Assembly (NCBI RefSeq): GCF_000421465.1 | Contig: NZ_ATXB01000001.1 | Span: 434,001 to 498,000, forward strand | DNA from: Methylohalobius crimeensis 10Ki | Lineage (GTDB): Bacteria; Pseudomonadota; Gammaproteobacteria; Methylococcales; Methylothermaceae | Direction of reading: 5' to 3' | DNA: 64,000 nt | Shown here: positions 39,315 through 55,420 of the stretch, piece after piece | How the letters are laid out: each line of letters begins with the position of its first letter | Position numbering within the stretch: the stretch's first letter is position 1 | Position numbers and translations under genes: made by a program | Notes under the pieces: model-generated | Databases searched by the model: none | Told to the model about the DNA's origin: nothing | What the model saw: only the letters and a program-made list of their open reading frames with translations

Positions 39315-40172
39315 TTACCTTTCTAGACGTACCGATGACGGTTTTTTGGCCGGCCGAGTATTGTTTTTTTCCAAAACAGTCAGGCTGACGAGGATACCGG
39401 GCCAGATATCGTCGCCGGGACAGCGATGGTTCAGTTCCGGCAGGACGACCAAACGCGCATTGGGCTGACGTCCGGCTTCCTTTCTAATCAGCGTTAGCGG
39501 GATATTATCATCCCTTTCCCCTGCGATATGAATTTGAAAAATATTTTTCGATAAAGGGGATTGCCGTGCCGGGTCGTAGGAAGCCTCCAAAGGGCTGTAT
39601 TCATGCCGTTCGGTCCATTCGGCGACGTTGAGATTGCCTGCCATGGTGACGACACCACCGACGGCGGGCGAGCGCGCCGCCATCAACATGGCCAGCGCCC
39701 CGCCGCCGCTGTAGCCGATCAGCACGGGACGGCAGGGTTTGTCTCCCACGATTCGTCGCAGCGCCGCGGTCATGCTGGCGACCACCGCTTCCCCGTAGCG
39801 CGCTTGGGTCCAAAGGCGAGGCCGGCAGCCGGCCGTACGCGCCAAGCCGTGATAGCAGGGGCGGCCCAAATAGACGGCCGGGGCCGGGTCCTTCGCCATT
39901 AAGGGAAGCAGGCAGCTATGATCGGGGGTGGGATCCGGAGAGGCACGATTTTTTGTCAGCCAGGCGATCCCGTCCCCTTCCAAATAGACGTGTAACTTGC
40001 CCCCTGTACATGCTCGGCGGTCGTTGGCATAGGCGATGTGTTCGAAATGCTCGCCTCTGAAGCGGAGTTTGATTAGTCCCAAACCCTGGGCTTGTCGGTC
40101 GAGAAGCCTGGCCGGTGCGAGGCAGCCGCTCAACAGGCAGCAAAGAATGCCCATCAGGAAAATTTCACCGCG
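39315..40172 (-). CDS. Alpha/beta-hydrolase lipoprotein
   Basis: 285 residues from ATG 40172 (MRGEIFLMGILCCLLSGCLA), with a lipobox ending at Cys18. LIGYSGGGALAMLMAARSP (~146-164) has the nucleophile elbow G-x-S-x-G; IHIAGERDDNIPL and LPELNHRCPGD supply candidate Asp and His. The fold resembles esterases/lipases with a cap region. It is divergent from the caspase-domain gene at 40300 with 127 bases between the start codons. The role is unknown. Confidence 0.78.
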   Translation of the reverse strand, partial: RGEIFLMGILCCLLSGCLAPARLLDRQAQGLGLIKLRFRGEHFEHIAYANDRRACTGGKLHVYLEGDGIAWLTKNRASPDPTPDHSCLLPLMAKDPAPAVYLGRPCYHGLARTAGCRPRLWTQARYGEAVVASMTAALRRIVGDKPCRPVLIGYSGGGALAMLMAARSPAVGGVVTMAGNLNVAEWTERHEYSPLEASYDPARQSPLSKNIFQIHIAGERDDNIPLTLIRKEAGRQPNARLVVLPELNHRCPGDDIWPGILVSLTVLEKNNTRPAKKPSSVRLER

Positions 40173-40299
40173 CATGAGGCGATATCCGATAATCATGGGG
40201 AATATTTTTAAGTATGCTAGGGTCTCAATTAATATCGGCGAAAGTTCCGTTGTGGGAACGTCTAATTTCCATATGATGCCTAAATGCCAGGGGATTGCC

Positions 40300-43143
40300 A
40301 TGAAGCGTTTGTGGTGGACGATATCGAAAATGCCGGTTTGTATCTTTTTGGCCGGCCTATTGGTTGGGTGTGCCTCCCGGCCCGTGGAGGAAGAGATCGC
40401 GGTGGGGCCGGAGCAGGCTGATAAATTGTATGTGGTGGATTGCTTGTTGCCGGCCCAAGTGCGTAAGCTCGGTCAGCATTTCACCTATCTGGCCGCTCGC
40501 CGGCCCATTCGCACGACCGCCGTCGACTGCGAGATCCGGGGCGGGGAATATGTGGCCTACGATCGCAGCAATTACGCCACCGCCCTGAAGGTCTGGCTGC
40601 CGAAGGCCAAAGGCGGAGACCCCCAAGCCCAAACCTATGTGGGGGAGATTTTCGAGAAAGGTTTGGGAATCCAGCCGGACTACGACGCCGCCGCCCAATG
40701 GTACCGCAAGGCGGCCGAGCAGGATTATGCCGCGGCGATGATCAACCTTGGCTTCTTATACGAAAAAGGGTTGGGCGTCGAGCGCGATCCGGTGGCGGCG
40801 CTGAATTGGTATCGAAAGGCTTCCGGATTGGATCAGACCGATATCGCTTTCGCCGCCTCGGTGGAGGTCTATAATCGCAAGATGGCGTCGCTGCGTGAAG
40901 AAGCGGCGCAATATCGGCAGGAAGCAGCCGGTTTGCGCGAGCAGCTGGCCACCTTGCAACAGCAGCACCAGCAGACTCAGAAGTACCTCCGGCGTTATCG
41001 GGAGCAAATGGAGGCCAGCCGGCGCGAGGTGCAGCGGTTGAAGCGCGAGTTGCAATCGGCTCCCAAAGCTCCCGGTGCTAAGTCGTCAAGCCAAGGCGAA
41101 GCATTGAGACAGCGTCTCGAGCAACAAATGATGCAGCTTCAGGAAAAGGAAAAAATGGTGGCTTTGCTGGAAAAGGAAGTCGCCGAGCAGAGCCAAAAAA
41201 TGGCATCGATCCAGGAAGGAAGCGCCCAGGCGGTCAAGGAGAAGGAAGCCGAGATTCAGGACTTGAAGACCCAGCTCGCCCGGCGCAATCAGGCTTTGTT
41301 GGCATTGCGCCGGCAGCTGACCGAAAGTCAGTCCCGCTTGAGAGAATTGCGTCAACAGGTCGTTGGCGACAATCAAAGCCTGGATGCCCAAATAAAAATC
41401 CAGCGCGAGCTGCAGGCCCAATTGGAGGAAAAGCAGGCGACAGGCTCCGCCAGCCGGGAGGAACTGGCGCGCTTGACCGAAGCACTCAAGGTGAAGCAGG
41501 CCGAGATCGATCGCAAGAAAGCGGAAATCGCGAGCGTGAAATCGGAGATGGCCGAGTTGAGCGAGACCAATCGCAATCTCCAGCAACGGTTAACGCAAAG
41601 ACAGCAGCAATTGGCCCAGCTGGAAAACCGCTTGGGCAACGCCGAACAACTGGTTCAATCCAAGGAAGGCCAGATGGAAACCTTGCAGGCCGAGATCGTC
41701 CGCCGCGACGAATCTCTGCAAGCGCTGCGCCGGCAATTGGCCGACGCCAACGATCGACTGACTTCCCGGAAACAGACGGTTCAGGCCCTGCAGCAACAAT
41801 TGGCGCAAAAACAGACCGATAGCAATGTCAGTCAGGCGGAATTGGCCATGCTCGCCGCTCGTCTGCAGGAGAAGGAGGCCGAGGTCAACCGCCAGCAGGA
41901 AATCATCCAAGGCCTGAAAGCCAATGTGGCGGAATTGGAAAAACAACAACAGGCGCGGCCCAAGCAAGCCACGCCGTTGGCCCGGGCGGAATCCACTTCG
42001 GATGAAGGTGCGTGGATTGAAATCATCGATCCGCCCTTGCGCCCCCAGCGCGGCAGTTTGATGGTGGTCACCCGGGGCATGGTGGAGGCGCGTACCGTGG
42101 TGGGACAAATCCACTCTTCGGCAGGTATTTTAGCCTTCAACGTGAACGACCGGGATTTCGCTCCGGAGCCCGATGGCACCTTCAAAGTCAAAGTGCCTCT
42201 CAAAGGGAAGGAAACCCCGGTGCATCTGGTGGCGGTGGATCGCAACAGCCGCCGCACCGAGCTGAATTTCATCATTTTCCGGGATGCCAAAACCGCCGCC
42301 CCCGCCCCTGACTTGGTCGGAGTGGAAAATGAATCCAACCAGGGCGAAAGCTTGGCGAAGGCTTTACCGCGCCAGATGTTTGGCGGCTATCACGCCTTGA
42401 TTATCGGCAACAACGACTATCAATATCTGCCCAAGCTGGATACGCCCATCAATGACGCCAAAGCATTGGCGCGGGTGCTGCGAGATCGCTACGGGTTCAA
42501 GACCCGTCTGCTGCTGGACGCCAGCCGTTATGATCTTCTCAAAGCCTTGAACGAATACCGCAAGACTTTGACCGAAAAAGACAACTTGCTGGTCTATTAT
42601 GCTGGCCACGGGACTCTGGAAAAAGTCACCCAGCGCGGTTATTGGCTGCCGGTGGATGCGGAATTGGAAAACACCGCCAACTGGGTGTCCAATCAGGATA
42701 TCACCGATATTTTGCGGATCATGTCCGCCGCCCACGTGATGGTGATCGCCGATTCCTGTTACTCGGGGGCCCTTACGAGAAGCTCCGTCGCGCGTTTGGA
42801 AGCGGGCATGACGCCGGAAAAGAAGGCCGAATGGATCAAGATGCTGCTCAAGGCTCGCTCACGCGTCGCGCTAACTTCGGGAGGGCTGAATCCGGTCCTC
42901 GACGGCGGCGGTGGCGGGCATTCGGTCTTCGCCAAGGCGCTTATCCAGGCGCTGGAAAACAATCGCCGCATCGTGGAATCGTTCCGGCTGTATACCGAAG
43001 TCTCGGCGCTCGTCGCCGACGCGGCCAAGGATCAGAATTTCCACCAAGTGCCGGAGTTTTCCCCCATTCGCCACGCCGGCCACGAGGCGGGAGAATTCTT
43101 CTTTGTGCCCAAGCGGGGCGCCGGCTTACAGGCTGGATTGTAA
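40300..43143 (+). CDS. Caspase-domain (C14) lipoprotein with Sel1 repeats and long coiled coil
   Basis: 947 residues from ATG 40300; a lipobox ends at Cys24 (FLAGLLVGCASRP). Sel1-like repeats lie at ~95-175 (AAQWYRKAAEQDYAAAMINL). A long coiled coil, heptad-rich in Gln/Glu/Lys/Arg, spans ~190-560. After a linker, a caspase-like p20 domain spans ~690-900: HALIIGNNDYQYLPKLDTPI, LLVYYAGHGT (catalytic His) and MVIADSCYSGAL (catalytic Cys). A ~40-residue tail follows. Bacterial caspase homologues of this sort are proteases or signalling hubs; extracytoplasmic localisation with a coiled-coil spacer is unusual. A terminator follows. Confidence 0.85.
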   Translation: MKRLWWTISKMPVCIFLAGLLVGCASRPVEEEIAVGPEQADKLYVVDCLLPAQVRKLGQHFTYLAARRPIRTTAVDCEIRGGEYVAYDRSNYATALKVWLPKAKGGDPQAQTYVGEIFEKGLGIQPDYDAAAQWYRKAAEQDYAAAMINLGFLYEKGLGVERDPVAALNWYRKASGLDQTDIAFAASVEVYNRKMASLREEAAQYRQEAAGLREQLATLQQQHQQTQKYLRRYREQMEASRREVQRLKRELQSAPKAPGAKSSSQGEALRQRLEQQMMQLQEKEKMVALLEKEVAEQSQKMASIQEGSAQAVKEKEAEIQDLKTQLARRNQALLALRRQLTESQSRLRELRQQVVGDNQSLDAQIKIQRELQAQLEEKQATGSASREELARLTEALKVKQAEIDRKKAEIASVKSEMAELSETNRNLQQRLTQRQQQLAQLENRLGNAEQLVQSKEGQMETLQAEIVRRDESLQALRRQLADANDRLTSRKQTVQALQQQLAQKQTDSNVSQAELAMLAARLQEKEAEVNRQQEIIQGLKANVAELEKQQQARPKQATPLARAESTSDEGAWIEIIDPPLRPQRGSLMVVTRGMVEARTVVGQIHSSAGILAFNVNDRDFAPEPDGTFKVKVPLKGKETPVHLVAVDRNSRRTELNFIIFRDAKTAAPAPDLVGVENESNQGESLAKALPRQMFGGYHALIIGNNDYQYLPKLDTPINDAKALARVLRDRYGFKTRLLLDASRYDLLKALNEYRKTLTEKDNLLVYYAGHGTLEKVTQRGYWLPVDAELENTANWVSNQDITDILRIMSAAHVMVIADSCYSGALTRSSVARLEAGMTPEKKAEWIKMLLKARSRVALTSGGLNPVLDGGGGGHSVFAKALIQALENNRRIVESFRLYTEVSALVADAAKDQNFHQVPEFSPIRHAGHEAGEFFFVPKRGAGLQAGL

Positions 43144-43253: not shown

Positions 43254-44621
43254 TCAGAACTGGATGCGGGTTCCGAAGGAGATGCGATGGCTGCTGACGT
43301 GTCGGTATCCCACCAACGCTTCATAGCCGACGAAGGCCGAAATGCCGTGGGCGAAAGTCGCGGTCAGATCGCCGCCGAAGGTGGCGTAATCCCGGTCGGG
43401 GGGCGCAACGCGAATGGCGAAGGTTTGTCCCAAGGGATCGCCCACGAAACTCGCCGAGATGGTGCGGCTGGGATCGCGGAATTCGTGATGCCACTCGCCC
43501 CGGAATTGCGGCGTGACGACGCCCCAAGGCAGGCTGATGGCGTAGGAAGCCTGCGCCCCGACGATGGATTTCATCGAGCGGACTTTGTGCTCGTCCAGGC
43601 GGATCGCCCAACCGTCGCCGCCGGTTTCGCGGTAATCGTCCACCCGCAGCCGCTTGTAGCTGAACCGCCCATAAGGGGTGAGGTTGAAGCCCTGCCAGTG
43701 GAGATTGTACCCGGTTGAGACCGCGAATCCCCATTGGCTGCCGTCGGTATCGCCATTGGCCCGGGCGTTGACGGTATCGCCGGGAATCGTGTAGGTGATA
43801 TTGCGGGTGGTATCGAAATTGATATGACCGTAGGTGGCCAAGGCATCGACGTAGAGATTCTCCAAGGGGTAATAGGAGCCGTAAACGCTACCGATGTAGG
43901 AGTCGTTGTCGGCATGGCCGCCGTTGCTGTCGAATTCGTTGTCGGAGGTCACGTAGCTGAAAGCCCCGCCGGCGACCAGGGAGTCGGTGATCCGATAATC
44001 GGCCCCGCCGGTGACGCCCCAGTTCTTGAAGTTGAAGCCCCGTTGGGACGGCATGGAGTCGACCTCCCCCAGATGATAGTTGCCGTTGATCCATACTCCC
44101 AGGGGGCCGAACGCATCGCTGCCGGCATTGCCGCCGGTGATGGGTTGGCCGTTTTGAAACAGCTGAACGCCGGCGAACCGGGTTGTGCCGAGGCCGGCCC
44201 GGAGCGTTTCCAGGCGTCCCAGGACCGATGCGTTGACGATATTGACATGGCCTGCCATGGTGCGAGTGGATTCCTGGCCGAAGGAAGTGATTTGCTCCGG
44301 CGAAGCTTCGAACAGGGCTTCACCGACGGCCGCGCTGCCGGGGTCGTCGACGGACGCGCCCACCAGCGCGTTGCAACGATTCCGGAAATCTTCTTCCAAA
44401 ACGTCGTTGCGTTGGGAGCAGGCCTCGAATACCACGTCCGCCATGCTCTTCTGTGATTGATTGAGAGACTGCCCTTCCGAGATAGGGTTCTCGTATGCGG
44501 CCAGAAGCTTATGGCGCCAATCCGGCGTCATGACCGCCACCGCTCCGCACAGCAGCGAACAGGTGACGGTGGTTGCCGTTCCCAGGGCGGGGCGGGGTGG
44601 TTTTTTAATTGGTATGGTCAT
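43254..44621 (-). CDS. Autotransporter-type outer-membrane beta-barrel protein
   Basis: 455 residues from ATG 44621 (AGAGGG upstream; the start overlaps the preceding gene's stop as TCATGA). A signal-like N-terminus with IKKPPRPALGTATTVTCSLL precedes a short alpha-helical region (~50-140). The C-terminal ~290 residues have alternating hydrophobic beta strands (NWGVTGGADYRITDSLVAGG, YGSYYPLENLYVDALATYGH, YGRFSYKRLRVDDYRETGG) and end in RISFGTRIQF, with the terminal aromatic needed for Bam recognition. It is a typical autotransporter barrel with a very short passenger. Exact partners are unknown. Confidence 0.8.
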   Translation of the reverse strand: MTIPIKKPPRPALGTATTVTCSLLCGAVAVMTPDWRHKLLAAYENPISEGQSLNQSQKSMADVVFEACSQRNDVLEEDFRNRCNALVGASVDDPGSAAVGEALFEASPEQITSFGQESTRTMAGHVNIVNASVLGRLETLRAGLGTTRFAGVQLFQNGQPITGGNAGSDAFGPLGVWINGNYHLGEVDSMPSQRGFNFKNWGVTGGADYRITDSLVAGGAFSYVTSDNEFDSNGGHADNDSYIGSVYGSYYPLENLYVDALATYGHINFDTTRNITYTIPGDTVNARANGDTDGSQWGFAVSTGYNLHWQGFNLTPYGRFSYKRLRVDDYRETGGDGWAIRLDEHKVRSMKSIVGAQASYAISLPWGVVTPQFRGEWHHEFRDPSRTISASFVGDPLGQTFAIRVAPPDRDYATFGGDLTATFAHGISAFVGYEALVGYRHVSSHRISFGTRIQF

Positions 44622-45793
44622 GATGTGCCCTCTTGAAATTTGTATGTTGCCGAAATGCAACCAATTATTAGTAAAAATGTCAATCCGACCCATTGTCGCC
44701 ATAAGCTTAGCTCGAACAGGCCGCTCAGGCAAAATGCAATTAGGGCTGCAATAACAGCAGAAGTTAATATTTGCTGCTGTGGATTTTTAGATGCTTGAAA
44801 ATATTTGGATTTTATGGAAAAAAGCAACAACCCCACAAAAGCGAGCGCGCCTATTATGCCCAGTTCCGCCAGAATTTCCAGGTAGAGATTATGCGCCCAA
44901 GGGGTGACGCGCGGATCGTGGACGACCCAATCGGGCAATTGGGTTGGATTCAGATAATCCTTATAAAGGAGCAGGTAGCTTCCAATACCGTGACCGGTGA
45001 GGGGGGATTGCAGAAACATTTGCCAGGCGGCCCACCATAAGGGAAGGCGGCTGGTCCAGGAACTCAGGAATTTAGTGGTCAGGGTAAAACAGAGAGCGGC
45101 ATCCATCAAAATCAGCCCGAGAATGGCAACCGTACCGATCCGAAAAAGCTGCTTCGATTCTCGCAGGAGAAGAAAGAACAGCGCCATGCTCACTCCCGCG
45201 ATCAATATCGCCAGCCGGCTATGGTAAACGACGGCGAGTGATAAGGAGATGGCGATCGCCGCCCAGGCCAGCCACGATTGGGCGGAAAATTTCGGGCTTA
45301 ATTTGAACAAGGCCAGCGGAAACGGTAATAAAATTTGAAATAGAATAATGTCGTTGGGGACTTTGAAAGCGGTCAAGCGGCTTTGTACGATCCATTCGGT
45401 GGGAGACATTTGCGGGTGAGTGGCGGAAACCATGAGCATCCAGCCCCCCAAAACACAAGCAATCAGTGTCCATGTCAAACAAAGTCCGATCAATTGACGC
45501 TTGCCGAAATAGCCGCTGATCAGAAAGTACACCAAGCAGGCGGGGATTAACGCGAGGCTCAGGTGCAAACTTCGGTGGAAATTCGGGCTGTTGAGATTGC
45601 CTATGCCGATAACCAGCATTAGGAAGAGGAATGCAGCGAGGATACCGGAAGGAAATCGGGGGGCAGCGACGAGCGCGGCCCGGCTTCCCAAGACAGCCAA
45701 GCCGAGCAGGCCGATGTCCAGGCTAAAGGGGAGAGCGAAAGTCGCGAGGTAAAAATACACCGCCGCTTCCGCGCTGCACCTGGATGGGATCAT
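44618..45793 (-). CDS. O-antigen ligase / Wzy-type polymerase
   Basis: 391 residues with about ten membrane segments. A large periplasmic loop near ~250-300 contains WWAAWQMFLQSPLTGHGIGS and HNLYLEILAELGIIGALAFV, the conserved Wzy_C/O-antigen-ligase signature. It would join or polymerise O-polysaccharide units. It overlaps the autotransporter gene by four bases and is five bases from the upstream gene; no other lipopolysaccharide genes are adjacent. Confidence 0.85.
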   Translation of the reverse strand: MIPSRCSAEAAVYFYLATFALPFSLDIGLLGLAVLGSRAALVAAPRFPSGILAAFLFLMLVIGIGNLNSPNFHRSLHLSLALIPACLVYFLISGYFGKRQLIGLCLTWTLIACVLGGWMLMVSATHPQMSPTEWIVQSRLTAFKVPNDIILFQILLPFPLALFKLSPKFSAQSWLAWAAIAISLSLAVVYHSRLAILIAGVSMALFFLLLRESKQLFRIGTVAILGLILMDAALCFTLTTKFLSSWTSRLPLWWAAWQMFLQSPLTGHGIGSYLLLYKDYLNPTQLPDWVVHDPRVTPWAHNLYLEILAELGIIGALAFVGLLLFSIKSKYFQASKNPQQQILTSAVIAALIAFCLSGLFELSLWRQWVGLTFLLIIGCISATYKFQEGTS

Positions 45794-45798
45794 CGGGT

Positions 45799-46215
45799 TT
45801 AGTAGTCCTCTTCTACCCGCAGCATTCGGTAAAGAACCCCCTTGTTATCGAACATACGGTATGCCCCCGAGGGGGTGATTTCCCCGTAGACGTAGATTTT
45901 CCCTCTTTTGGGGGGATACAGATAACCGGCGACTTTGCGTTTATCCAGTATTTGCACCTGGCCATAGAAATATTTGGAATCGGTAAATCCCCCTACTTTG
46001 ATCCATTCTCCTTTTCTTAGGCGGTTTTTCGACCTTCGGGCTTGTTTTTTTGAAATGGGATTGCCGTTGGGCGATTCCGCTTGAAAAATGGCCGTGGCGG
46101 AAATGAAGCCGGGATCATGCTGCGCCTCGGCGCAATAAGCGCCTAGCGCAGCAAAAACCCCGATGCCCAGCCGTGATATTGTCCAAAAGTTGAGCTTATT
46201 CCGCCGGTTCCACAT
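45799..46215 (-). CDS. Exported protein of unknown function
   Basis: 138 residues. A signal peptide is apparent (hydrophobic ~11-29, ending AYCAEAQ). The mature part is rich in Lys/Arg (SKKQARRSKNRLRKGEWIKV), then short beta-type segments (YFYGQVQILDKRKVAGYLYP). No family is recognised. It overlaps the end of the DUF2807 gene by 20 bases and is five bases before the O-antigen-ligase gene, so it is part of the same transcript. Confidence 0.6.
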   Translation of the reverse strand: MWNRRNKLNFWTISRLGIGVFAALGAYCAEAQHDPGFISATAIFQAESPNGNPISKKQARRSKNRLRKGEWIKVGGFTDSKYFYGQVQILDKRKVAGYLYPPKRGKIYVYGEITPSGAYRMFDNKGVLYRMLRVEEDY

Positions 46216-46894
46216 CCCCCACCCCGGTAATATGCGTGATCACTTGAGCGGGGCGGCCGTAATAGGTGACATCGCCTACGCCGGACACATCGACCTTCAG
46301 CGTTTTTTGAGCGTTGACTGCCACATCGGCGGCACCGGAGACGTTGACCTGGGCCTGTTCTGCCCGCAACTGGCTGAAATCCAGGCTGCCGCTGCCCCCT
46401 GCGATGATTTCCAACGTTCCGGTTCGGCCCCGTGCGTAGACGTCGCCGCTGCCGTTTGCCTCGATTCTGAACCGGGGCGAATCCAAGTCCAGCAGTTCGA
46501 CATCGGCGGCGGAACGGATGGCCAGTTCCTCGAGACGGGGGCTACGCAGTTCTACCCGCAAAGGTCCCTCGCTTTGGATCGAGCGGTTCGCTTCGATCCG
46601 CAGTTGATCGCCCCGCACTCGGGTTTGGATCAGGTCCAGGAGGTTGGAATCCGCTTCCAGGCGTGCCTGGCATCGTTTGCCCGGGCGGTAGACCACATCG
46701 ATCCCCGCTTCGACTGCGATACGCTCGAAGCAGGGCAGTTCGCGGGTTTCTTCGGCGCGCCGATGATTGCCGCGAACCAGATCTTCGTTGCCGTATTCCA
46801 CCCCGTCGATGACGATTTTACCGGTGACCGCCTCGGCCGCCGCCAAGCCAGGTACGAGGCAGCCGAGGAGTGACAAGACTTTAAGCCGGTTCAT
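46196..46894 (-). CDS. DUF2807 (GIN-domain) exported protein
   Basis: 232 residues with a signal peptide (MNRLKVLSLLGCLVPGLAAA). The body is a right-handed beta-helix-type repeat with periodic Asp/Gly-Ser patterns (LEELAIRSAADVELLDLDSP, GSGDVYARGRTGTLEIIAGG, VNVSGAADVAVNAQKTLKVD) typical of DUF2807. The family is exported and putatively adhesin-like, with no known enzymatic role. It overlaps the next gene and is three bases from the OmpA-like gene. Confidence 0.82.
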   Translation of the reverse strand: MNRLKVLSLLGCLVPGLAAAEAVTGKIVIDGVEYGNEDLVRGNHRRAEETRELPCFERIAVEAGIDVVYRPGKRCQARLEADSNLLDLIQTRVRGDQLRIEANRSIQSEGPLRVELRSPRLEELAIRSAADVELLDLDSPRFRIEANGSGDVYARGRTGTLEIIAGGSGSLDFSQLRAEQAQVNVSGAADVAVNAQKTLKVDVSGVGDVTYYGRPAQVITHITGVGDVEPAE

Positions 46895-46897
46895 GAC

Positions 46898-47470
46898 TTA
46901 ATCCACTCGGTGCAGTTCTACTCGCCGGTTCAAGGGGTCGAAAGGATCCTTGTCCGGGAGGGGGGTATGCTCGCCGCGGCCCACGATCTGCAGGCGTTCC
47001 GGTTCCACCGAGAACCGGGAATACAGGTATTCCTTGACCGCCTTGGCGCGCTGTTGGGAGAGCCACTCGTTATAACTATCCGAACCGCTGGCATCGGTAT
47101 GCCCCTCGATGATGAGGCGTTCCCGCTGGAATTGATCCATGGTCAGCATCCGGCCGATTTCGTCCAGGAAGGGCTTGGCCTCCTCGCGAAGTTTGGCCGA
47201 GTTGAAATCGAATTGGATCGGCAAGGCGATGGCGACCGATTCCTTGGCTTGCTCGGCCGGTTGAGCGGACGGGGCGGCATTGAAGGTCAGCGAGCGGGTT
47301 TTGGGGCGGCGCTCGGTTTTATCCGGAAACAGCAATTTTCCCATTTCGTCCGCCGACGGTGGTTCGGTGAAGAGCCGGACGTCTCCGGCGAGGACGGTTT
47401 GTCCGCAAGCAGCCAGGGCCAGCGGCAAGAGAAGGTGGCGGAAGGGGGAATGGCGTGGTTTTGTGTTCAT
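46898..47470 (-). CDS. OmpA-family protein with peptidoglycan-binding domain
   Basis: 190 residues with a signal peptide (LLLPLALAACGQTVLA; the AAC may form a lipobox). The OmpA-C domain occupies ~80-190: IQFDFNSAKLREEAKPFLDE, LIIEGHTDASGSDSYNEWLS and QQRAKAVKEYLYSRF, then NRRVELHRVD at the end. It anchors the outer membrane or an assembly to peptidoglycan. It lacks a transmembrane barrel. It sits between the small lipoprotein and DUF2807 genes. Confidence 0.88.
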   Translation of the reverse strand: MNTKPRHSPFRHLLLPLALAACGQTVLAGDVRLFTEPPSADEMGKLLFPDKTERRPKTRSLTFNAAPSAQPAEQAKESVAIALPIQFDFNSAKLREEAKPFLDEIGRMLTMDQFQRERLIIEGHTDASGSDSYNEWLSQQRAKAVKEYLYSRFSVEPERLQIVGRGEHTPLPDKDPFDPLNRRVELHRVD

Positions 47471-47502
47471 AGGGAGTACCTCGTTAGGTTGTCAGGGTCG
47501 GG

Positions 47503-47805
47503 TCATTTGGGCTCCCAACGGGTGACTCGCCCGTCGGGATCGAAAAAGACCACCTGGGTGCGAAATTCCCGCGATTCCCCCCAGTCACCTTTGGTGGTGC
47601 CCTGGCAGGTATAGCAGTGTCGCCCCCAGGCGGCTCGAACTTGCTCCTTGGTCATGCCTTTGGCGATCATGCCGGCGCGGATCAGTTCCACCATTTGGGG
47701 CTTCCATTCGGGATGCTGGGCGATATAGTCCTCGCGCCGGACCGGTGCGGTTTCGCAAGCCGCCAACAGGAGCACGGCGGCAGCTAGAAATACGGGTTTC
47801 TTCAT
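47503..47805 (-). CDS. Small lipoprotein with a CxxC motif
   Basis: 100 residues. MKKPVFLAAAVLLLAACETA gives a signal peptide with lipobox (AAC, Cys17). The mature part has IAKGMTKEQVRAAWGRHCYT and WGRHCYTCQGTTKGDWGESR, with a CxxC pair. The MTKEQVRAAWG block resembles the SmpA/BamE-like small lipoproteins. The start overlaps the stop of the CsgG-like gene (ATGA), so the two are tightly coupled. The function is unknown. Confidence 0.75.
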   Translation of the reverse strand: MKKPVFLAAAVLLLAACETAPVRREDYIAQHPEWKPQMVELIRAGMIAKGMTKEQVRAAWGRHCYTCQGTTKGDWGESREFRTQVVFFDPDGRVTRWEPK

Positions 47806-49436
47806 GGCTGGGCTCCTTGGTTCATGGCCGCTTGTTGGGAAGATCCGTCCGTTACCTGGAACTCCGTCCCGGCAACCGCGAAATTCTGGCCCGCATCGGG
47901 GACAAACTCTCCGTTTTCATCCACCGGAAGCGCATCGGCGGAAATCGGGGAGACCGAGGCGACGGCGCGGATTTTATCGATCCCGGCGGGAGCGCCCACG
48001 GTCAGTTTGGCCGGCGCGTTGGCCGGAGGAATCCGGTAGGTTTGCCCCGGGCGGACGAAGTTATCGTTCTGATAAGGGTTGGGGAACAGGGTGGACATTT
48101 TGCCCACCGAGTTGATGGTCACGATGCGTACAAACATGGGACGGCTCACCTCGAAAAAGATTTCCATGGGTTCGCCGATCTTGAATGCCTGCTTGCTCAG
48201 CCACACTTTGAGCTCACCCAATTCCGGTTCGGGCGGTTGCGGCCGAAGCGTTTTCGGTTTGGATGCTTCCGCTTGAGCCGGTGGGGAAACCGATTTGTCC
48301 GGTGCTTGGAATGCCAGCGCGCGGAGCCGGTTTTGATAGTCTTCCAGCAGGGCGTTGACTTGCTTGCGCCGGAATTGCGCCTCGAAGTCCATAGGCACGT
48401 TTTGGAATAGGGCCAGATAGAGCTCCTCGCTGACCGGGCGGGTGTTCTCGACGCCGTACTCGCTTTTGAAGCTTTCAATGGCGGCCCGGGTGGAGGCGTC
48501 CAAGCGGCCGGTCACCTTCAGGTCTTTGCCGCAAAGATAGAGATATTCCTGAATTTTGGCGATACGATCGGGTCGCTCCAAGCTATAAAATTCCTCGCGA
48601 ACCGCGTCGAGAACCACCGGATCCGGGTCGGCGCTGGGCAACAGCCGCCAGTAGGGCAGGGTTTGGTATTTGCCCACGACTTGGAGAATACTCAGTTGTA
48701 CCAGCAGACGAATGGCGGCATGGCGTCCCTGGATCTTCTTGATATTGCCGCGCAGGCCGAGGGTCTGTCCATAAACCGTAAATCCCAGCTGGTCGGCGCC
48801 GACCCCTTTGTGGACCTTGATGTTGTTGACCGCCTGCATGAAGGGAATGCCGGTAAAGGTTTGAAAGTCGATCAAATTGAAATCGAGGGTAATGCTCGCC
48901 AGCGAGTTTTTGCGGACGTCGGCGAAATCCAAGCCCATGGGAACCCCGAGCTCCTCGACTGTCCCGCTCAGGTCCAGATTTTCTTCCTTCGTCACCAGTC
49001 CGCGGTCGAATTCGGTCAAGCCGCCTACCAAAACCACGTCGGGTAGCAGTTTGTCTCCCCATTCGGAGTAGCCGGTCTGGGCCGTATTGAGCATGAATTC
49101 CGGATCGTAGGGGACATAAAGAATATTCCCGCCGATGGAATTGAGCGTGCTTTTGACCATCTCGCTGATGTCCTGGGGAATTTCTCCGCTGGTCGGCAGG
49201 GAAGTGCCGGTTCGGTCGATCGCCGGCTTGGACATCACTTTGAGCAGCCCCCGGTTGTAAATGACATTGGCCCGCCCCAGATCCCGCACTGCTTGCGTGA
49301 AGATGGTGGTTTTCACTTCCGGCAAAGAAGTGTTTAGATCCAGGTCCACGTCTTGGGGGTTTACCCCGCAAGCGCCGATCCAGACTGTCAAAAAGCTGAT
49401 ACCTAAAATCTTGGCTAGATGGAGTGAGGTGTTCAT
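47802..49436 (-). CDS. CsgG/HfaB-like outer-membrane lipoprotein with PG-binding and DUF4384-like regions
   Basis: 544 residues; the lipobox is SFLTVWIGACGVNPQD (Cys23). Residues ~40-270 resemble the CsgG/HfaB secretin-like fold, with alternating beta segments (GGNILYVPYDPEFMLNTAQT, ASITLDFNLIDFQTFTGIPF), and end in HAAIRLLVQLSILQVVGKYQ, as in CsgG's C-terminal helix. At ~290-335 is a PG-binding-1-like helix region (KIQEYLYLCGKDLKVTGRLD). At ~410-490 lies a DUF4384-like domain (VWLSKQAFKIGEPMEIFFEV, PNPYQNDNFVRPGQTYRIPP). CsgG pores export amyloid subunits; here the similarity is remote. Its partners appear to be the genes on either side. Confidence 0.62.
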   Translation of the reverse strand: MNTSLHLAKILGISFLTVWIGACGVNPQDVDLDLNTSLPEVKTTIFTQAVRDLGRANVIYNRGLLKVMSKPAIDRTGTSLPTSGEIPQDISEMVKSTLNSIGGNILYVPYDPEFMLNTAQTGYSEWGDKLLPDVVLVGGLTEFDRGLVTKEENLDLSGTVEELGVPMGLDFADVRKNSLASITLDFNLIDFQTFTGIPFMQAVNNIKVHKGVGADQLGFTVYGQTLGLRGNIKKIQGRHAAIRLLVQLSILQVVGKYQTLPYWRLLPSADPDPVVLDAVREEFYSLERPDRIAKIQEYLYLCGKDLKVTGRLDASTRAAIESFKSEYGVENTRPVSEELYLALFQNVPMDFEAQFRRKQVNALLEDYQNRLRALAFQAPDKSVSPPAQAEASKPKTLRPQPPEPELGELKVWLSKQAFKIGEPMEIFFEVSRPMFVRIVTINSVGKMSTLFPNPYQNDNFVRPGQTYRIPPANAPAKLTVGAPAGIDKIRAVASVSPISADALPVDENGEFVPDAGQNFAVAGTEFQVTDGSSQQAAMNQGAQP

Positions 49437-49475
49437 CGTGCGGCCTCAGGTTATCCGGGGCGGTTGAAAAAAGGA

Positions 49476-49808
49476 TTATTTGGCGACCGCCGTAGCGCCA
49501 CGGTTGTCGGAATTGTTGAGAATGATGGTGCCCGGAGCGAGTTTGGTCCCGGGTCCCAGAATAATATTGCCCTGACCGGCGCTATTGCTTTCGTTGGTGA
49601 TCAGGGTCTTTCGGTTTCCCGACAATTCCTTCCCTTTCGCTTTCATCAGGATGAAGGAGTCGTTGAGGCCGGTTTTCAAGGAATCGTCGATGGGAGTATC
49701 CAGGGGAATACCGTCGTCCAGGTCCGAGCTCCAAGCCATTGCGGGAATGAGCAATAGACTTAGGGCGATGCCTAATGGCAGTTTGGGAAAAGTGGTGGTT
49801 GTGCTCAT
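49476..49808 (-). CDS. Small exported protein of unknown function
   Basis: 110 residues from ATG 49808, with AAGGAGG a few bases upstream. The signal peptide is clear (FPKLPLGIALSLLLIPAMAW then SSDLDDG). The mature part is low in charge and rich in Asn/Gly/Thr (TLITNESNSAGQGNIILGPG, APGTIILNNSDNRGATAVAK), with the look of a short fibre or adhesin subunit. No homologue is recognised. The gap to the CsgG-like gene is 39 bases. Confidence 0.6.
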   Translation of the reverse strand: MSTTTTFPKLPLGIALSLLLIPAMAWSSDLDDGIPLDTPIDDSLKTGLNDSFILMKAKGKELSGNRKTLITNESNSAGQGNIILGPGTKLAPGTIILNNSDNRGATAVAK

Positions 49809-49873
49809 GGAGCCCTCCTTGATTGCAAATAGGGAAGCCGTCCCTGGCTGGTTGATTCCCGAAGGTTGGAAAA

Positions 49874-50188
49874 TTATTCCGCGACGACCGAACCTTGATT
49901 GGCCTGAGCGTCGCTCAACAGTCCGCCTTTGGCGACGTTGGCGGAGTTCTTGACGTTGGCCCGGTTGCTGACGGTCGAGTTCTTCACGGTGGAGCCCTTG
50001 ATCTTGACCGAACCCTGGTTGGCTTCGGCGTCGCCCAACAGCCCGCCTTGGGCGATGTTGGCGGAGTTCTTGATGTTGGCCCGGTTGGTGATGGTGGAGT
50101 TTTTGATCTTGGAACCTGCGGCCATCGCGCCGGTAGCCATGCTCATGCCCAGGATCGCTGCGGTCAGTACGGTGAAGGTTTTGTTCAT
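49874..50188 (-). CDS. Asn/Ser-rich tandem-repeat secreted protein, copy 1
   Basis: 104 residues: a signal peptide (LTAAILGMSMATGAMA) followed by two ~39-residue repeats. The first contains IKNSTITNRANIKNSANIAQ and GGLLGDAEANQGSV; the second contains VKNSTVSNRANVKNSANVAK and GGLLSDAQANQGSV. Spaced N, S and Q with glycine turns is reminiscent of curlin-type or other beta-solenoid fibre subunits, but the sequence is not that of CsgA. It is nearly identical to the protein at 50655-50969, including the DNA, so it arose by recent duplication. The function is unknown. Confidence 0.65.
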   Translation of the reverse strand: MNKTFTVLTAAILGMSMATGAMAAGSKIKNSTITNRANIKNSANIAQGGLLGDAEANQGSVKIKGSTVKNSTVSNRANVKNSANVAKGGLLSDAQANQGSVVAE

Positions 50189-50654
50189 GATTAGATCTCC
50201 TGTGGTAGTTGGCTGTGTATTTGCCTCTTGGCAAAATTGATTGTAGTTGAGTCGAGAGAAACATATAAGGCGTGAGTGTCATTTCGTTCTCTCTTACTCG
50301 TCTCTGATACACGGACACGACGAGTATTTTCCGCCAAAAAATTTATAAGAATTTTGCATATGTATATATGATTATGTTGACTCGTAGGAGCGATCGCTAA
50401 TTGGAGCATATCGGCGGAAAAGAGCATTTTTTCGCGTTGCCAAAGGGGATCGGCGGTGAAAGTGCGGCGACGATAAGGGGAGATGGAGTCAATGGGAAGT
50501 GCGAATCGAGAATCCAGGCGGAGTGTTTTAGGTCCGCGAAGGAGGCAGGAAAGGTGGAATTTAGGAGAGGGGCGGAGTTCGGCAAGCGCTTGAGGGACGC
50601 CTGGATTCCCCGGGTAAGCCGTCCCTGGCTGTTTGATTCCCGAGGTTGGAAAAT
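50189..50654 (-). promoter_or_regulatory. Leader region of repeat-protein copy 1, duplicated upstream of copy 2
   Basis: No gene is seen here. On the minus strand a block near 50306-50345, GGACACGACGAGTATTTTCC and CGCCAAAAAATT on the plus strand, resembles the block at 51087-51127, and both are followed by an AT-rich stretch (ATATGTATATATG). A second shared block is GATTGTAGTTGAGTCGAGAG near 50239-50258 and 51018-51037. This suggests duplicated promoter and leader DNA. The part at 50400-50654 adjoining copy 2 holds no feature that I recognise; it may be the tail of copy 2's transcript region. Confidence 0.5.
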
Positions 50655-50969
50655 TTATTCCACGACGATCGATCCTTGATTGGCCTGGGCGTCGCCCAAC
50701 AGTCCGCCTTTGGCGACGTTGGCGGAATTTTGGACGTTGGCCCGGTTGCTGATGGTCGAGTTCTTCACGGTGGAGCCCTTGATCTTGACCGAACCCTGGT
50801 TGGCTTCGGCGTCGCCCAACAGCCCGCCTTGGGCGATGTTGGCGGAGTTCTTAATGTTGGCCCGGTTGGTGATGGTGGAGTTTTTGATCTTGGAACCTGC
50901 GGCCATCGCGCCGGTAGCCATGCTCATGCCCAGGATCGCTGCGGTCAGTACGGTGAAGGTTTTGTTCAT
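50655..50969 (-). CDS. Asn/Ser-rich tandem-repeat secreted protein, copy 2
   Basis: 104 residues from ATG 50969 (MNKTFTVLTAAILGMSMATG). It differs from copy 1 at only a handful of residues in the second repeat and at the end (TISNRANVQNSAN for TVSNRANVKNSAN; LLGDAQANQGSIVVE for LLSDAQANQGSVVAE). It has the same signal peptide and the same two-repeat architecture. The high DNA identity extends into the flanks. It may be a second subunit of the same fibre or a dosage duplicate. Confidence 0.65.
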   Translation of the reverse strand: MNKTFTVLTAAILGMSMATGAMAAGSKIKNSTITNRANIKNSANIAQGGLLGDAEANQGSVKIKGSTVKNSTISNRANVQNSANVAKGGLLGDAQANQGSIVVE

Positions 50970-51138
50970 GATTAGATCTCCTATTGACATTTGAGTGTTC
51001 TTGCCTGTTGGCAATCTCGATTGTAGTTGAGTCGAGAGGAATTAAAAATGAATTCGTTGCGGCGTCCTCTGTCTCTCGCCCTTGTAACACGGACGCGAAA
51101 TGTTTTTTCCGCCAAAATTGTTTATGGTATTTTTTTAT
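50970..51138 (-). promoter_or_regulatory. Leader region of repeat-protein copy 2, adjoining the APE cluster
   Basis: AT-rich DNA with the duplicated blocks described at 50189-50654. It directly adjoins the first ketosynthase reading frame of the APE cluster on the other strand, which appears to start within it (ATG 51139). No other gene is seen. Confidence 0.5.
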
Positions 51139-52260
51139 ATGTATATTCCATGCTTTTTCTATGCCGTTTCTGAGTCGGGTAAACAGGCGGGCCACAAGCT
51201 TTCAGGTCCGGTTTCGAGGGCGGTTTTTGCCATCGAAGACGCACGATTGGCGGAAGTGCCGTCCTCGCAGGCCCGCTATCGTTCCCGCAGCAATCGCCTG
51301 CTGATGACGGTACTGGACGAGGTTCGAGAAAGACTGAGGGGGTACCCTCCGGATCGGATTGGGGTAGTCATCGGCACTTCCAGCGCGGGGATCGCGGAAG
51401 GCGAGGCGGCGCTGAAATATCGGCTGCATCGAGGCGCCATGCCGCCATGGTTTCACTATAAACAGCAGGAGTTGGGCGGGGCGGCGGAGTTTGCCGCCCG
51501 TTGGCTGGGGATTCGGGGGCCGGCTTATACGGTATCCACCAGTTGCGCCTCCGGGGCGCATGCCCTGGTCTGCGCCGGAAATCTGCTACGCTTGAAAATA
51601 TGCGACGCGGTGGTCGCCGCCGGCGTGGAAACCTTATCCGGCACCACCGTGCAAGGGTTCGCTTCTCTGGGGGCGTTGAGCGGAACCCGCTGCAATCCCT
51701 TCAGTCGCCACCGCGACGGCACGATACTGGGCGAAGGGGCGGCGGTATTTCTGCTTACCCGGAATTTCGCGCCTTTGGCTTTGATGGGAGCGGGAATGAG
51801 TTCGGATGCCTATCACCTGTCGGCGCCCGATCCCGCCGGTCGCGGCGCAAAGCTGGCGATGTCCCGGGCGCTGCGAGAGGCCGGCTTGGGTCCGCAGGAT
51901 ATCGGCTATCTCAATTTGCACGGCACCGCCACCGGGCATAACGATGCCATGGAGGCCCGGGCGGTGCGTGCCCTGTTTGGAGATGCGCCGCCGCCGAGCA
52001 GCAGCACCAAGCCGCTTACCGGCCACTGCCTGGGGGCGTCCGGCGCGGTGGAGGCGGCCATTTGCGGGGAGGCATTGCTCGATTTGGACAAACCCCTGCC
52101 TCGGCACGAATGGGACGGTTGCGGCGACCCGGAATTACCCGCGTTGCATTTCACCGATGGGCGTGAAAAAATTAATCCGGATAAACCATTCTGTATGAGC
52201 AACACCTACGCTTTCGGCGGCGCCAACATTTCCTTGATCTTGGGCCGCGCGGATTTATGA
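51139..52260 (+). CDS. Beta-ketoacyl synthase, ApeO-like, with abnormal N-terminus
   Basis: 373 residues from ATG 51139; 51100 is an alternative. The catalytic Cys is in YTVSTSCASGAHALV, and the two His are in LNLHGTATGHN and STKPLTGHCLGASG. The normal ketosynthase first strand (an 'A.G.I.alG' start) is missing: the first ~25 residues (MYIPCFFYAVSESGKQAG) come from AT-rich repeat-protein leader DNA. ApeO and the CLF-like ApeC are thought to form the chain-extending dimer. It overlaps the next gene's ATG (ATGA). It is either recently truncated or starts further upstream in a way that I cannot recognise. Confidence 0.75.
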   Translation: MYIPCFFYAVSESGKQAGHKLSGPVSRAVFAIEDARLAEVPSSQARYRSRSNRLLMTVLDEVRERLRGYPPDRIGVVIGTSSAGIAEGEAALKYRLHRGAMPPWFHYKQQELGGAAEFAARWLGIRGPAYTVSTSCASGAHALVCAGNLLRLKICDAVVAAGVETLSGTTVQGFASLGALSGTRCNPFSRHRDGTILGEGAAVFLLTRNFAPLALMGAGMSSDAYHLSAPDPAGRGAKLAMSRALREAGLGPQDIGYLNLHGTATGHNDAMEARAVRALFGDAPPPSSSTKPLTGHCLGASGAVEAAICGEALLDLDKPLPRHEWDGCGDPELPALHFTDGREKINPDKPFCMSNTYAFGGANISLILGRADL

Positions 52261-52724
52261 ATTACGATCCCCGCCGTTTTCCCCTGGCCAGCCTGTTGCC
52301 CCAGTCCGGCGATATGCTGCTGCTCGACCGTTTGCTGGAAGTGACCGATGAAGCCGCCACCGCCGCCTTGACGGTCCGGGACGATCATCTGTTTTCCCTG
52401 CCCGGCGGCAGCGTGCCGGCATGGGTGGGTTTGGAGTACATGGCCCAGGCCGTGGCGGCCTGGTCGGGCTATCACTGTCGCCGCCGGGGGGAACCGATCC
52501 GGCCCGGCCTGTTGTTGGGCTCCCGCCGATTCGACCTCGAGACGGCGGAATTTGCCTGCGGCAGCACCTTGACGGTGCGGGGAGAGCGGGTGTTCGAGGC
52601 CGCCAACGATATGTGCGTATTCGATTGCGTGATCGAGGATTCCAGGCCCGTGGCCCGGGCCCGCTTGAACGTGTTGTTGCCCCCCGACCTGAAGCCATTC
52701 CTGCGAGGAGAAATGACATCATGA
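52257..52724 (+). CDS. APE dehydratase, hotdog fold (ApeP-like)
   Basis: 155 residues. It is a hotdog-fold hydro-lyase homologue. Its signature is GGSVPAWVGLEYMAQAVAAW (~51-70), matching the ApeP pattern; the FabA/FabZ catalytic His may be DDHLFSLPGG's His. In APE synthesis ApeP and ApeI are heterodimeric dehydratases acting on 3-hydroxyacyl-ACP. It overlaps the genes on both sides by four bases (ATGA), consistent with one transcript. Confidence 0.82.
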   Translation: MNYDPRRFPLASLLPQSGDMLLLDRLLEVTDEAATAALTVRDDHLFSLPGGSVPAWVGLEYMAQAVAAWSGYHCRRRGEPIRPGLLLGSRRFDLETAEFACGSTLTVRGERVFEAANDMCVFDCVIEDSRPVARARLNVLLPPDLKPFLRGEMTS

Positions 52725-53452
52725 GCCGAAAAACCGTCTTGATCACCGGCGCGAGCCGGGGGATCGGCCGCGCCATTGCCTGTCGTCTGGCGCGCGAAGG
52801 CTACGATCTGGTACTCCATTGCCGAAGCCGGCTGTCTTTGTTGGAGGATTTGGCGGAGGAGTTGCGCGAAGCTCAGGATGTTTGGATTCGCCTGCTGCAA
52901 TTCGATCTGGCCGACCGCGGCGGCGCGCGCGCGGCATTGGAGCGCGATATGGCGGCCCACGGGGCCTATTACGGGGTGGTTTGCAACGCCGGTCTGGCCC
53001 GGGATGCCGTCTTTCCGGCCCTGACCGACGAGGATTGGGATCAGGTGGTCCACACCAATCTGGACGGTTTTTATAACGTCCTCCATCCGCTGGTCATGCC
53101 CATGATCCGGCGGCGCCGGCCGGGCCGCATCGTGACCCTGGCCTCGGTGTCCGGCTTGATCGGCAATCGCGGCCAGGTGAATTACAGCGCCGCCAAGGCG
53201 GGCATTATCGGTGCTACCAAGGCGCTGGCGTTGGAGCTGGCCAAGCGTCAGATCACCGTGAACTGCGTTGCACCGGGGTTGATCGAAACCGATATGGTGG
53301 AAGAACTGCCTTTGGACGAAATCAAGGCCATGATTCCGCAAAGACGCCTCGGCCGACCCGAAGAGGTGGCGGGCTTGGTGGCGTTTCTCCTCTCGGAAGA
53401 GGCAGCATACCTGACCCGCCAAGTGATCTCCGTCAATGGAGGCTTGTGTTGA
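52721..53452 (+). CDS. 3-oxoacyl-ACP reductase, SDR family (ApeQ-like)
   Basis: 243 residues from ATG 52721. NADP-binding TGASRGIGRAIACRLA (~9-24), the Ser of TLASVSGLIGNRGQ and the catalytic YSAAKAG (~152-158) are present, and the C-terminal NGGLC is a family end. It reduces beta-ketoacyl-ACP in the polyene cycle. It overlaps both neighbours by ATGA-type junctions. Confidence 0.92.
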   Translation: MSRKTVLITGASRGIGRAIACRLAREGYDLVLHCRSRLSLLEDLAEELREAQDVWIRLLQFDLADRGGARAALERDMAAHGAYYGVVCNAGLARDAVFPALTDEDWDQVVHTNLDGFYNVLHPLVMPMIRRRRPGRIVTLASVSGLIGNRGQVNYSAAKAGIIGATKALALELAKRQITVNCVAPGLIETDMVEELPLDEIKAMIPQRRLGRPEEVAGLVAFLLSEEAAYLTRQVISVNGGLC

Positions 53453-54675
53453 TGCGGCGGGTGGTGGTGACCGGTATGGCGGGAATTTCCGGGCTGGGGC
53501 ACGACTGGCCCTCCATTCTTGCCCGTCTGGAAGCGCAGCGCAATATCGTCAGGCGCATGCCTGATTGGGCCGTCTACGAGGGGTTGCATTGCCAGTTGGG
53601 GGCGCCGGTGACCGATTTCGAGCCGCCCGCCCATTACACCCGCAAGCAGACCCGCAGCATGGGGCGGGTGGCCCTGATGGCGGTGCGGGCCAGCGAGCGG
53701 GCCCTGGACGACGCCGGTCTGCTGGGCGATCCGGTGGTGGCTTCGGGGCGCACCGGAGTAGCTTACGGGTCCTCGGTGGGGTCGACGCCGGCCATCGCCG
53801 ACTTCGGTTATATGTTGTTGAAGCACAAAATCGGTGCCCTCAACGCCAACACTTATCTGAAAATGATGGGCCATACCACCGCCGTCAACGTGGCCCTGTT
53901 TTTCCAGGTCCAGGGACGGGTCATTCCGGCGGTGAGCGCCTGTACCTCCGGCAGCCAGGCCATCGGTTTCGCTTATGAGGCGATTCAGAACGGCCGCCAG
54001 GAGGTAATGATCGCCGGGGGTGCCGAGGAGTTGTGTCCCACCGAGGTGGCGGTATTCGATACGCTTTATGCCGCCAGTACCCGTGACTGCCCCGAAGCCA
54101 CGCCGCGCCCCTTCGACGCCGAGCGCGACGGCCTGGTGCTGGGCGAGGGCGCCTGCACCTTGGTTTTGGAAGAGCGGGAACGGGCCTTGGCGCGGGGGGC
54201 GCCGATATACGCCGAAGTGATCGGTTTCGGCACCAACTCCGACGGTTCCCACGTGACCCAGCCGTCGCGTGCCACCATGCGGGTGGCGATGGAATTGGCC
54301 CTTGCCGACGCCGACCTGCCGCCGGAGGCGATCGGCTATGTCAGCGCCCACGGAACGGGGACGCGCCATGGAGACGTGGCCGAGAGCTGGGCCACTTGCG
54401 ATGTCTACGGCGATCGGGTCCCGGTCAGCACCCTCAAGAGTTATACCGGCCATACGCTGGGCGCGTGCGGTGCGCTGGAGGCGTGGGTGGCGATCGAGAT
54501 GATGCGGGGCGGCGTCTTTCATCCCAATCTCAACCTCACCGCCGTCGATCCCGAATGCGCGCCGCTGAATTACATCGTGGGGGATATGCGTCCCATCGGT
54601 TGCGAAGCGGTGGCGAGCCACAATTTCGCCTTCGGGGGCATCAACACCGCCTTGATTTTCCGACGGCATGATTAA
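53452..54675 (+). CDS. Beta-ketoacyl synthase, ApeR-like
   Basis: 407 residues from ATG 53452, with AATGGAGG upstream inside the previous gene. The catalytic Cys is in VSACTSGSQAIGFA (~163-176); His residues are in GYVSAHGTGTRHGD and LKSYTGHTLGACG. It is a complete ketosynthase with normal N-terminus (RRVVVTGMAGISG). In APE clusters a third ketosynthase acts on the initial condensation with the aryl starter. It overlaps the next gene by eight bases. Confidence 0.88.
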   Translation: MRRVVVTGMAGISGLGHDWPSILARLEAQRNIVRRMPDWAVYEGLHCQLGAPVTDFEPPAHYTRKQTRSMGRVALMAVRASERALDDAGLLGDPVVASGRTGVAYGSSVGSTPAIADFGYMLLKHKIGALNANTYLKMMGHTTAVNVALFFQVQGRVIPAVSACTSGSQAIGFAYEAIQNGRQEVMIAGGAEELCPTEVAVFDTLYAASTRDCPEATPRPFDAERDGLVLGEGACTLVLEERERALARGAPIYAEVIGFGTNSDGSHVTQPSRATMRVAMELALADADLPPEAIGYVSAHGTGTRHGDVAESWATCDVYGDRVPVSTLKSYTGHTLGACGALEAWVAIEMMRGGVFHPNLNLTAVDPECAPLNYIVGDMRPIGCEAVASHNFAFGGINTALIFRRHD

Positions 54676-55420
54676 GTTTCAGGTCAAATGTTGGCGCGCC
54701 TGGCTGCCGCCGGAGCTGCGTCCCGACCCGGTGGCATCGAAAGTGGGCGCGCTGTTGCCGGGCGATGCACCGGATGTGTCCTTTCTTCCCTTGATGCAGC
54801 GACGGCGGCTGTCGCCCATGGCCCGGGCCGCGGTCGCAGCGGCTTGGCCATGTCTGGCGAAAGAGGTTGAAATTCCCGTCATCTGTTGTTCGCTGCACGG
54901 AGAAACCCGCCATTGCTTTGGCATTTTGAGCGCTTTGGCCGAGGCCGACGAAGTCTCGCCGAGCCAATTCGCTCTGTCGGTGCATAGTGCGGTCGGCGGT
55001 TTGCTGACTCAGCTGATCGGAAGCCAAGCGCCGTGTCTGGTCATTGCGCCGGGGAGCGAGGGCTATGCGGCGGCGTTGTTGGATGCGGCCGGCTTTTTGT
55101 TGTTTCAGGAAGGTGGGGGAGGCGAGGGAATGAGCGCCTCGCAAGAAGTGCTCGTACTCTGGCACGAGCAACCCTTGCCCGCCGTCTATCATCCTTATGC
55201 GCCTGATCCTCCCGGCGTAATGGCCTTGGCGGTGCGCTTGGGTGCTTGGCGGGGACAAGGCACCGCCCTAACGGTTGATCGGGTGCCGGGGAAGGGGACG
55301 GATCGATCGGCGGAAAAAAGCCCGTTGGTACGGGTGATCGAGGGATTTAGCGCCGGGGTTGATCGATGGATATCGGCGGCCGAGGGAGCCCAGTGGCACT
55401 GGGAGTTGGAACATGTTTGA
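54668..55420 (+). CDS. Beta-ketoacyl synthase N-terminal-like protein (ApeC-type chain-length factor)
   Basis: 250 residues. It is shorter than a ketosynthase and lacks a Cys-His-His set. The N-terminal ~150 residues match the PF13723-type ketosynthase N-terminal region (DVSFLPLMQRRRLSPMARAA, then HGETRHCFGILSALAEADEV and FALSVHSAVGGLLTQLIGS). ApeC acts as a CLF-like partner of ApeO. A low-complexity Gly/Glu patch lies at ~150-160. It overlaps the following acyltransferase gene by eight bases. Confidence 0.78.
   Translation: MIKFQVKCWRAWLPPELRPDPVASKVGALLPGDAPDVSFLPLMQRRRLSPMARAAVAAAWPCLAKEVEIPVICCSLHGETRHCFGILSALAEADEVSPSQFALSVHSAVGGLLTQLIGSQAPCLVIAPGSEGYAAALLDAAGFLLFQEGGGGEGMSASQEVLVLWHEQPLPAVYHPYAPDPPGVMALAVRLGAWRGQGTALTVDRVPGKGTDRSAEKSPLVRVIEGFSAGVDRWISAAEGAQWHWELEHV

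Follow-up and report, generated by a model that had tools for sequence, protein, structure and literature searches.

It was found that the genes of a small secreted repeat protein, of a secreted helper (orf110), and of a CsgG-like outer-membrane lipoprotein form a core that is conserved over several phyla. The core was encountered in the window (the whole stretch of 64,000 nucleotides of DNA analyzed here, from the methane-oxidizing bacterium Methylohalobius crimeensis 10Ki), where it belongs to ten tightly packed minus-strand ORFs encoding exported or envelope proteins (43254-50969, Table 1). These genes probably specify a CsgG-type system for the export and assembly of beta-helix surface subunits, which would work in a curli-like manner with different parts. 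What the evidence directly shows is that the pore protein is homologous to CsgG, that the three-gene core is conserved, and that the curli parts are absent.

Table 1. Genes of the locus and the divergent neighbor, with positions in the window.
Feature	Position	Strand	Remarks
Repeat subunit 1	50658..50969	-	104 aa, Sec signal, two 40-aa repeats; Pfam Hexapep_GlmU, AF2 model
Repeat subunit 2	49877..50188	-	Protein 95% identical to subunit 1
orf110	49479..49808	-	Core gene; secreted helper with DLDDGI motif; no match in Pfam or NCBIfam
CsgG-like outer-membrane lipoprotein	47802..49436	-	544 aa; CsgG-type domain, PG_binding_1-like region, DUF4384
Small CxxC lipoprotein	47503..47805	-	Weak BamE/OsmE similarity; kept in Methylococcales
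OmpA-domain protein, peptidoglycan anchor	46898..47470	-	Pfam OmpA 1e-20; kept in Methylococcales
DUF2807 protein	46196..46894	-	Pfam DUF2807 4e-37
orf138, secreted	45799..46215	-	Without known family; kept in Methylococcales
Wzy_C O-antigen ligase	44618..45793	-	Pfam 8e-18; close relatives only, probably not core
Autotransporter-type barrel protein	43254..44660	-	Pfam 2.7e-63; start codon uncertain; linked in Methylococcales, probably not core
Caspase (Peptidase_C14), Sel1 repeats, long coiled coil	40036-43140	+	Neighbor of the autotransporter gene in many loci of Methylococcales

The sequence-only reading had described ten exported or envelope ORFs on this strand, all of which are present in the ORF list, and its autotransporter barrel, O-antigen ligase, DUF2807, and OmpA assignments were each confirmed by Pfam (Table 1). 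The genes from the CsgG-like gene to the autotransporter gene form a single tight run, in which an ATGA overlap joins the CsgG-like and CxxC genes and the DUF2807 gene overlaps with orf138 by about 20 nucleotides. Lipoboxes (IGAC and LAAC) and Sec-type signals are visible in the sequences of the locus. The relevant unit is smaller than the ten-gene stretch, extending from 45802 to 50969 with the core at 47802-50969. A promoter and terminator scan gave no signal exceeding shuffled sequences, an Rfam search gave no match, and no relatives were found in the viral contigs searched. On the plus strand, beta-ketoacyl synthase, dehydratase-like, and ketoreductase-like genes (51100-55420, judged by their translations) are transcribed away from the locus and resemble an aryl-polyene or fatty-acid-type cluster. 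An exact tandem duplication of 263 bp lies at 2089-2616.

Is the 544-residue lipoprotein a true relative of CsgG? It has a CsgG-type domain (approximately residues 40-270), a PG_binding_1-like region (290-330), and a DUF4384 domain (418-497). As had been read from the sequence, the two additional regions exist, DUF4384 clearly (Pfam, 3e-25) and PG_binding_1 near the threshold (21.7 bits, slightly under the 23-bit cut-off). Since the Pfam CsgG model (PF03783) gave no match on the window protein alone, deeper alignments were needed. The same model is weak in the relatives, matching two of 13 (best 5.7e-4) and four of 22 in a wider set (best 3e-4), and a PDB sequence search with the single protein or a profile gave nothing useful. 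When a profile of 48 relatives was compared with CsgG proteins including that of E. coli, the probability was 95% (hhalign, E 3.5e-8, 271 columns), while five unrelated locus alignments used as controls gave 8% or less. When a moderate-quality structure model (pLDDT 66.7) was searched against the PDB with Foldseek, CsgG chains occupied the top 11 places (best E 1.7e-5). The alignment to CsgG is colinear, matching the DxTG region, the "GGLTEFD" and "ITLDFNLIDF" strands, and the helix after the second hairpin. Both membrane-hairpin regions of CsgG were found in the alignment as partly amphipathic stretches, and the confidence of the model is lowest there. The lipobox cysteine (Cys23 in IGAC) is invariant across the 13 relatives and 22 distant ones. 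DUF4384 is present in all 13 gammaproteobacterial relatives but in only two of the 22 proteins of the wider set, some members of which have TPRs instead. These results established that the lipoprotein, whose likeness to CsgG the earlier reading had noted, is a remote but real member of the CsgG superfamily, and it is likely that the protein forms a pore. The sole protein of this genome above the Pfam CsgG cut-off is encoded elsewhere on the contig (G000:C1:1552839-1553111, L001), unconnected with the locus.

Three small Asn-rich proteins had been claimed for the locus. Two of them are near-copies whose genes differ at 10 of 312 nucleotides, while the third is a different protein of 110 residues. 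The duplicated block of the subunit genes continues upstream with lower identity. Each 104-residue subunit consists of a Sec-type signal and two 40-residue repeats, with no lipid or membrane anchor. Both subunits score above the Pfam Hexapep_GlmU cut-off of 23.3 (27.8 bits for subunit 1), and only hexapeptide-type models match. An AlphaFold2 prediction using 23 relatives reached a pLDDT of about 90 for residues 22-104, and its strands are about six residues apart in a pattern recurring every 40, although AlphaFold2 is known for confident false solenoids on repeat sequences (PMC11795689). The relatives reach about 770 residues and have two to about 20 repeats; the longer ones in other phyla often have a period of 36 residues (33-40 in others), and a 36-residue period would correspond to two 18-residue coils of a left-handed beta-helix. 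Searches of the PDB and a viral library with the subunit model returned only non-significant solenoids, including ice-binding proteins and CsgA, so ice-binding is not claimed. Of the proposed beta-solenoid-type subunit, the hexapeptide match, the strand spacing, and the 36-residue period stand, but the fold itself is not proven and its PDB matches are non-significant; a left-handed beta-helix is what the Pfam match and the AlphaFold model suggest. The subunit genes occur in tandem, with one to three or more copies per locus. A second repeat-protein cluster was observed in a Methylotuvimicrobium-like genome (L070:1132-2871 and 10928-12055), in the same region as a DUF4384-bearing Ser/Thr kinase, and orphan repeat genes occur elsewhere in such genomes.

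The distribution of the genes was analyzed in 201 genomes of the Methylococcales order, taking an identity of 45% or more as a strong CsgG-like match. Such a match was found in 19 genomes, 18 of which have repeat genes, as compared with none of the 182 others (Fisher p 9e-25 for the co-occurrence, with genomes that are not independent). In most of the Methylococcales loci read, the order is repeat gene(s), orf110, CsgG-like gene, small lipoprotein gene, OmpA gene, DUF2807 gene, and orf138, and its recurrence in many genomes of the order is far beyond chance. A scan of GTDB genomes gave 49 loci, of which 46 have room upstream; by profile matches and motif search combined, a repeat gene was found in 41 and orf110 in 40 of these 46. 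The suggestion that the repeat subunits travel with the CsgG-like gene was thus borne out by the neighborhoods. The counted repeat genes include displaced ones, about 8 kb downstream in L097 and just downstream in L130, while neighboring repeat genes are absent from L093, L095, L096, L117, and L127. Two Methylomonas MAGs have a pore gene without adjacent repeats, and in one of them a repeat/orf110 set lies on another contig. The loci belong to Methylococcales, a Chromatiaceae MAG, Desulfobulbaceae, Nitrospirota, and Desulfuromonadaceae/Geomonas, as well as to single MAGs of Scalindua, Elusimicrobia, and Lentisphaerae, whose contigs could be misbinned. Isolates carrying the locus include Methylotuvimicrobium buryatense 5G, Desulfobulbus alkaliphilus, D. 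elongatus, and Geomonas sp. Red32. The tree of the CsgG-like proteins mostly follows the taxa. Several loci of Nitrospirota, Desulfuromonadaceae, Scalindua, and Lentisphaerae likewise have a DUF2807 gene close to the core. Two more exported genes follow the CsgG-like gene in both a Nitrospirota locus (L105:10392-11464) and the Scalindua locus (L125:5914-7078); one gene shared by the two has weak LPP20 similarity and an AGNKRIM/AGNKKIM start.

The orf110 protein is secreted and about 110 residues long. Its signal peptide is followed by a DL[DN]DGI motif that hardly varies, and the sequence also contains a conserved stretch, NxxFIxxxAxxxA, and, at the C terminus, the segment GN..GPG..IIN. It matched no family in Pfam or NCBIfam and has no detectable relation to CsgE or CsgF (hhalign, under 2%). 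Its gene is nearly always immediately upstream of the CsgG-like gene. Because of this constant place between the subunits and the pore, orf110 is the best candidate for a guide, gate, or nucleator. As for the other small proteins, orf138 gave no Pfam match, and NCBIfam named none of those encoded at the locus.

The outer genes of the run are distributed differently. The O-antigen ligase and the autotransporter, which had been counted as core parts, are absent or displaced in most relatives and were set aside as such. The Wzy_C ligase is restricted to close relatives; in Methylococcales, the locus is linked to both the autotransporter gene and the divergent caspase gene, and the Chromatiaceae locus has one displaced pair of the two. 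These neighbors appear to be local additions, and the ligase and autotransporter probably do not belong to the core. Short caspase-gene-like fragments lie downstream of orf138 in two loci (L090:12525-13045 and L092:12717-13045), as if from a decayed copy.

The layout recalls curli in that a CsgG-superfamily lipoprotein gene lies beside multicopy genes for small repeat subunits with Sec signals and a gene for a small accessory protein, and in both systems the subunits are probably beta-solenoids. Is the locus simply a divergent true curli system, in which the repeats are fast-evolving curlin and orf110 is a fast-evolving CsgE or CsgF? The Asn- and Gly-rich repeats do recall curlin, as does the shared plan. 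However, the models for curlin (PF07012), CsgF (PF10614), and CsgE (PF10627) matched nothing in the 19 genomes with the system, while each was positive on the E. coli control, in agreement with the earlier impression that CsgE and CsgF are not recognizable here. When the repeats and orf110 were compared by profile with CsgA/B, CsgE, and CsgF of E. coli, the values stayed under 2%. The repeat period is commonly 36-40 residues versus about 23 in curlin (PMC10192328), and the curlin Gln positions are missing. The pore protein of the locus further differs by its PG-binding-like and DUF4384 domains, and the accessory orf110 is new. Since none of the 19 related genomes has curlin, CsgE, or CsgF, a true curli system was rejected, and its divergent version is already disfavored and very unlikely.

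CsgG is part of a larger family, many of whose matches lie outside curli systems (Dueholm et al., PMC3521004). One of its relatives, HfaB of the Caulobacter HfaABD system, is required to place the amyloid-like or adhesin proteins HfaA and HfaD on the surface (PMC6707917), and by analogy the CsgG-like protein might surface repeat proteins that hold polysaccharide instead of forming long fibers. The short subunits of the window and the Wzy_C ligase within the operon would fit such a holdfast-type anchor, but the other loci read in detail show no recurring polysaccharide genes, the ligase does not extend beyond close relatives, and the subunits of up to about 770 residues in relatives look structural. 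Judged by its published description, HfaA differs from the repeats in being curlin-like. This anchor reading is unlikely. It is likewise improbable that the CsgG-like protein is a poreless periplasmic scaffold, like PelC, FlgT, and other proteins of the CsgG fold, with the repeats building a periplasmic structure. A periplasmic place is suggested by the PG-binding-like and OmpA domains, the hairpin regions are poorly modeled, and a CsgG-type fold occurs in many proteins other than curli pores (PMC3521004); nevertheless, both membrane-hairpin stretches are kept and partly amphipathic, and the repeat proteins have Sec-type signals with no anchor. Two further known systems may be compared. The left-handed beta-helix C-terminal domains of GlmU and GlgC share the Hexapep_GlmU match and the strand spacing of about six residues, whereas the subunits of the locus are secreted, tiny, free of an enzyme domain, variable in repeat number, and genetically tied to a CsgG-type gene, with non-significant PDB fold matches. 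The methanotroph S-layer is exported by a type 1 system and not by this CsgG-like one (PMC13274458).

The export and assembly reading remains the preferred one, and the two to about 20 repeats per subunit and the tandem gene copies, as in fiber subunits, were counted in its favor. Sec would take the two-repeat subunits into the periplasm, as suggested by their visible signals. In the outer membrane, the CsgG-like lipoprotein would oligomerize into a pore whose PG-binding-like and DUF4384 domains reach into the periplasm; the OmpA protein and the small BamE-like lipoprotein may help to seat it. The subunits may cross the pore unfolded and fold outside as short left-handed beta-helices, whose open ends could stack into a fiber or coat, as the repeats and the model suggest. 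From its linkage, orf110 may take over the part of CsgE/CsgF as a dedicated guide, gate, or nucleator, and the DUF2807 protein may be a surface or periplasmic partner. It is also possible, at a more tentative level, that the loci represent a separate CsgG-dependent surface-assembly class over several phyla, in which a hexapeptide beta-helix polymer of two to about 20 repeats replaces curlin and the DLDDGI protein orf110 replaces CsgE/CsgF.

What is known of CsgG pores comes mainly from curli and from the anchoring of holdfasts. In the open-access literature, the scope of the search, no description was found of a CsgG-type protein paired with repeat proteins of this kind, nor of CsgG with DUF4384 or with these taxa. 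The locus provides short repeat proteins that are new and perhaps also a new CsgG-type pore, and the cultured hosts among Methylotuvimicrobium buryatense, Desulfobulbus, and Geomonas strains are open to direct tests. If the reading is true, this second, widespread pairing with an unrelated subunit would mean that the CsgG-type pore exports beta-solenoid surface proteins more generally, and the system would be a candidate biofilm or surface structure for methanotrophs, sulfate reducers, and Nitrospirota.
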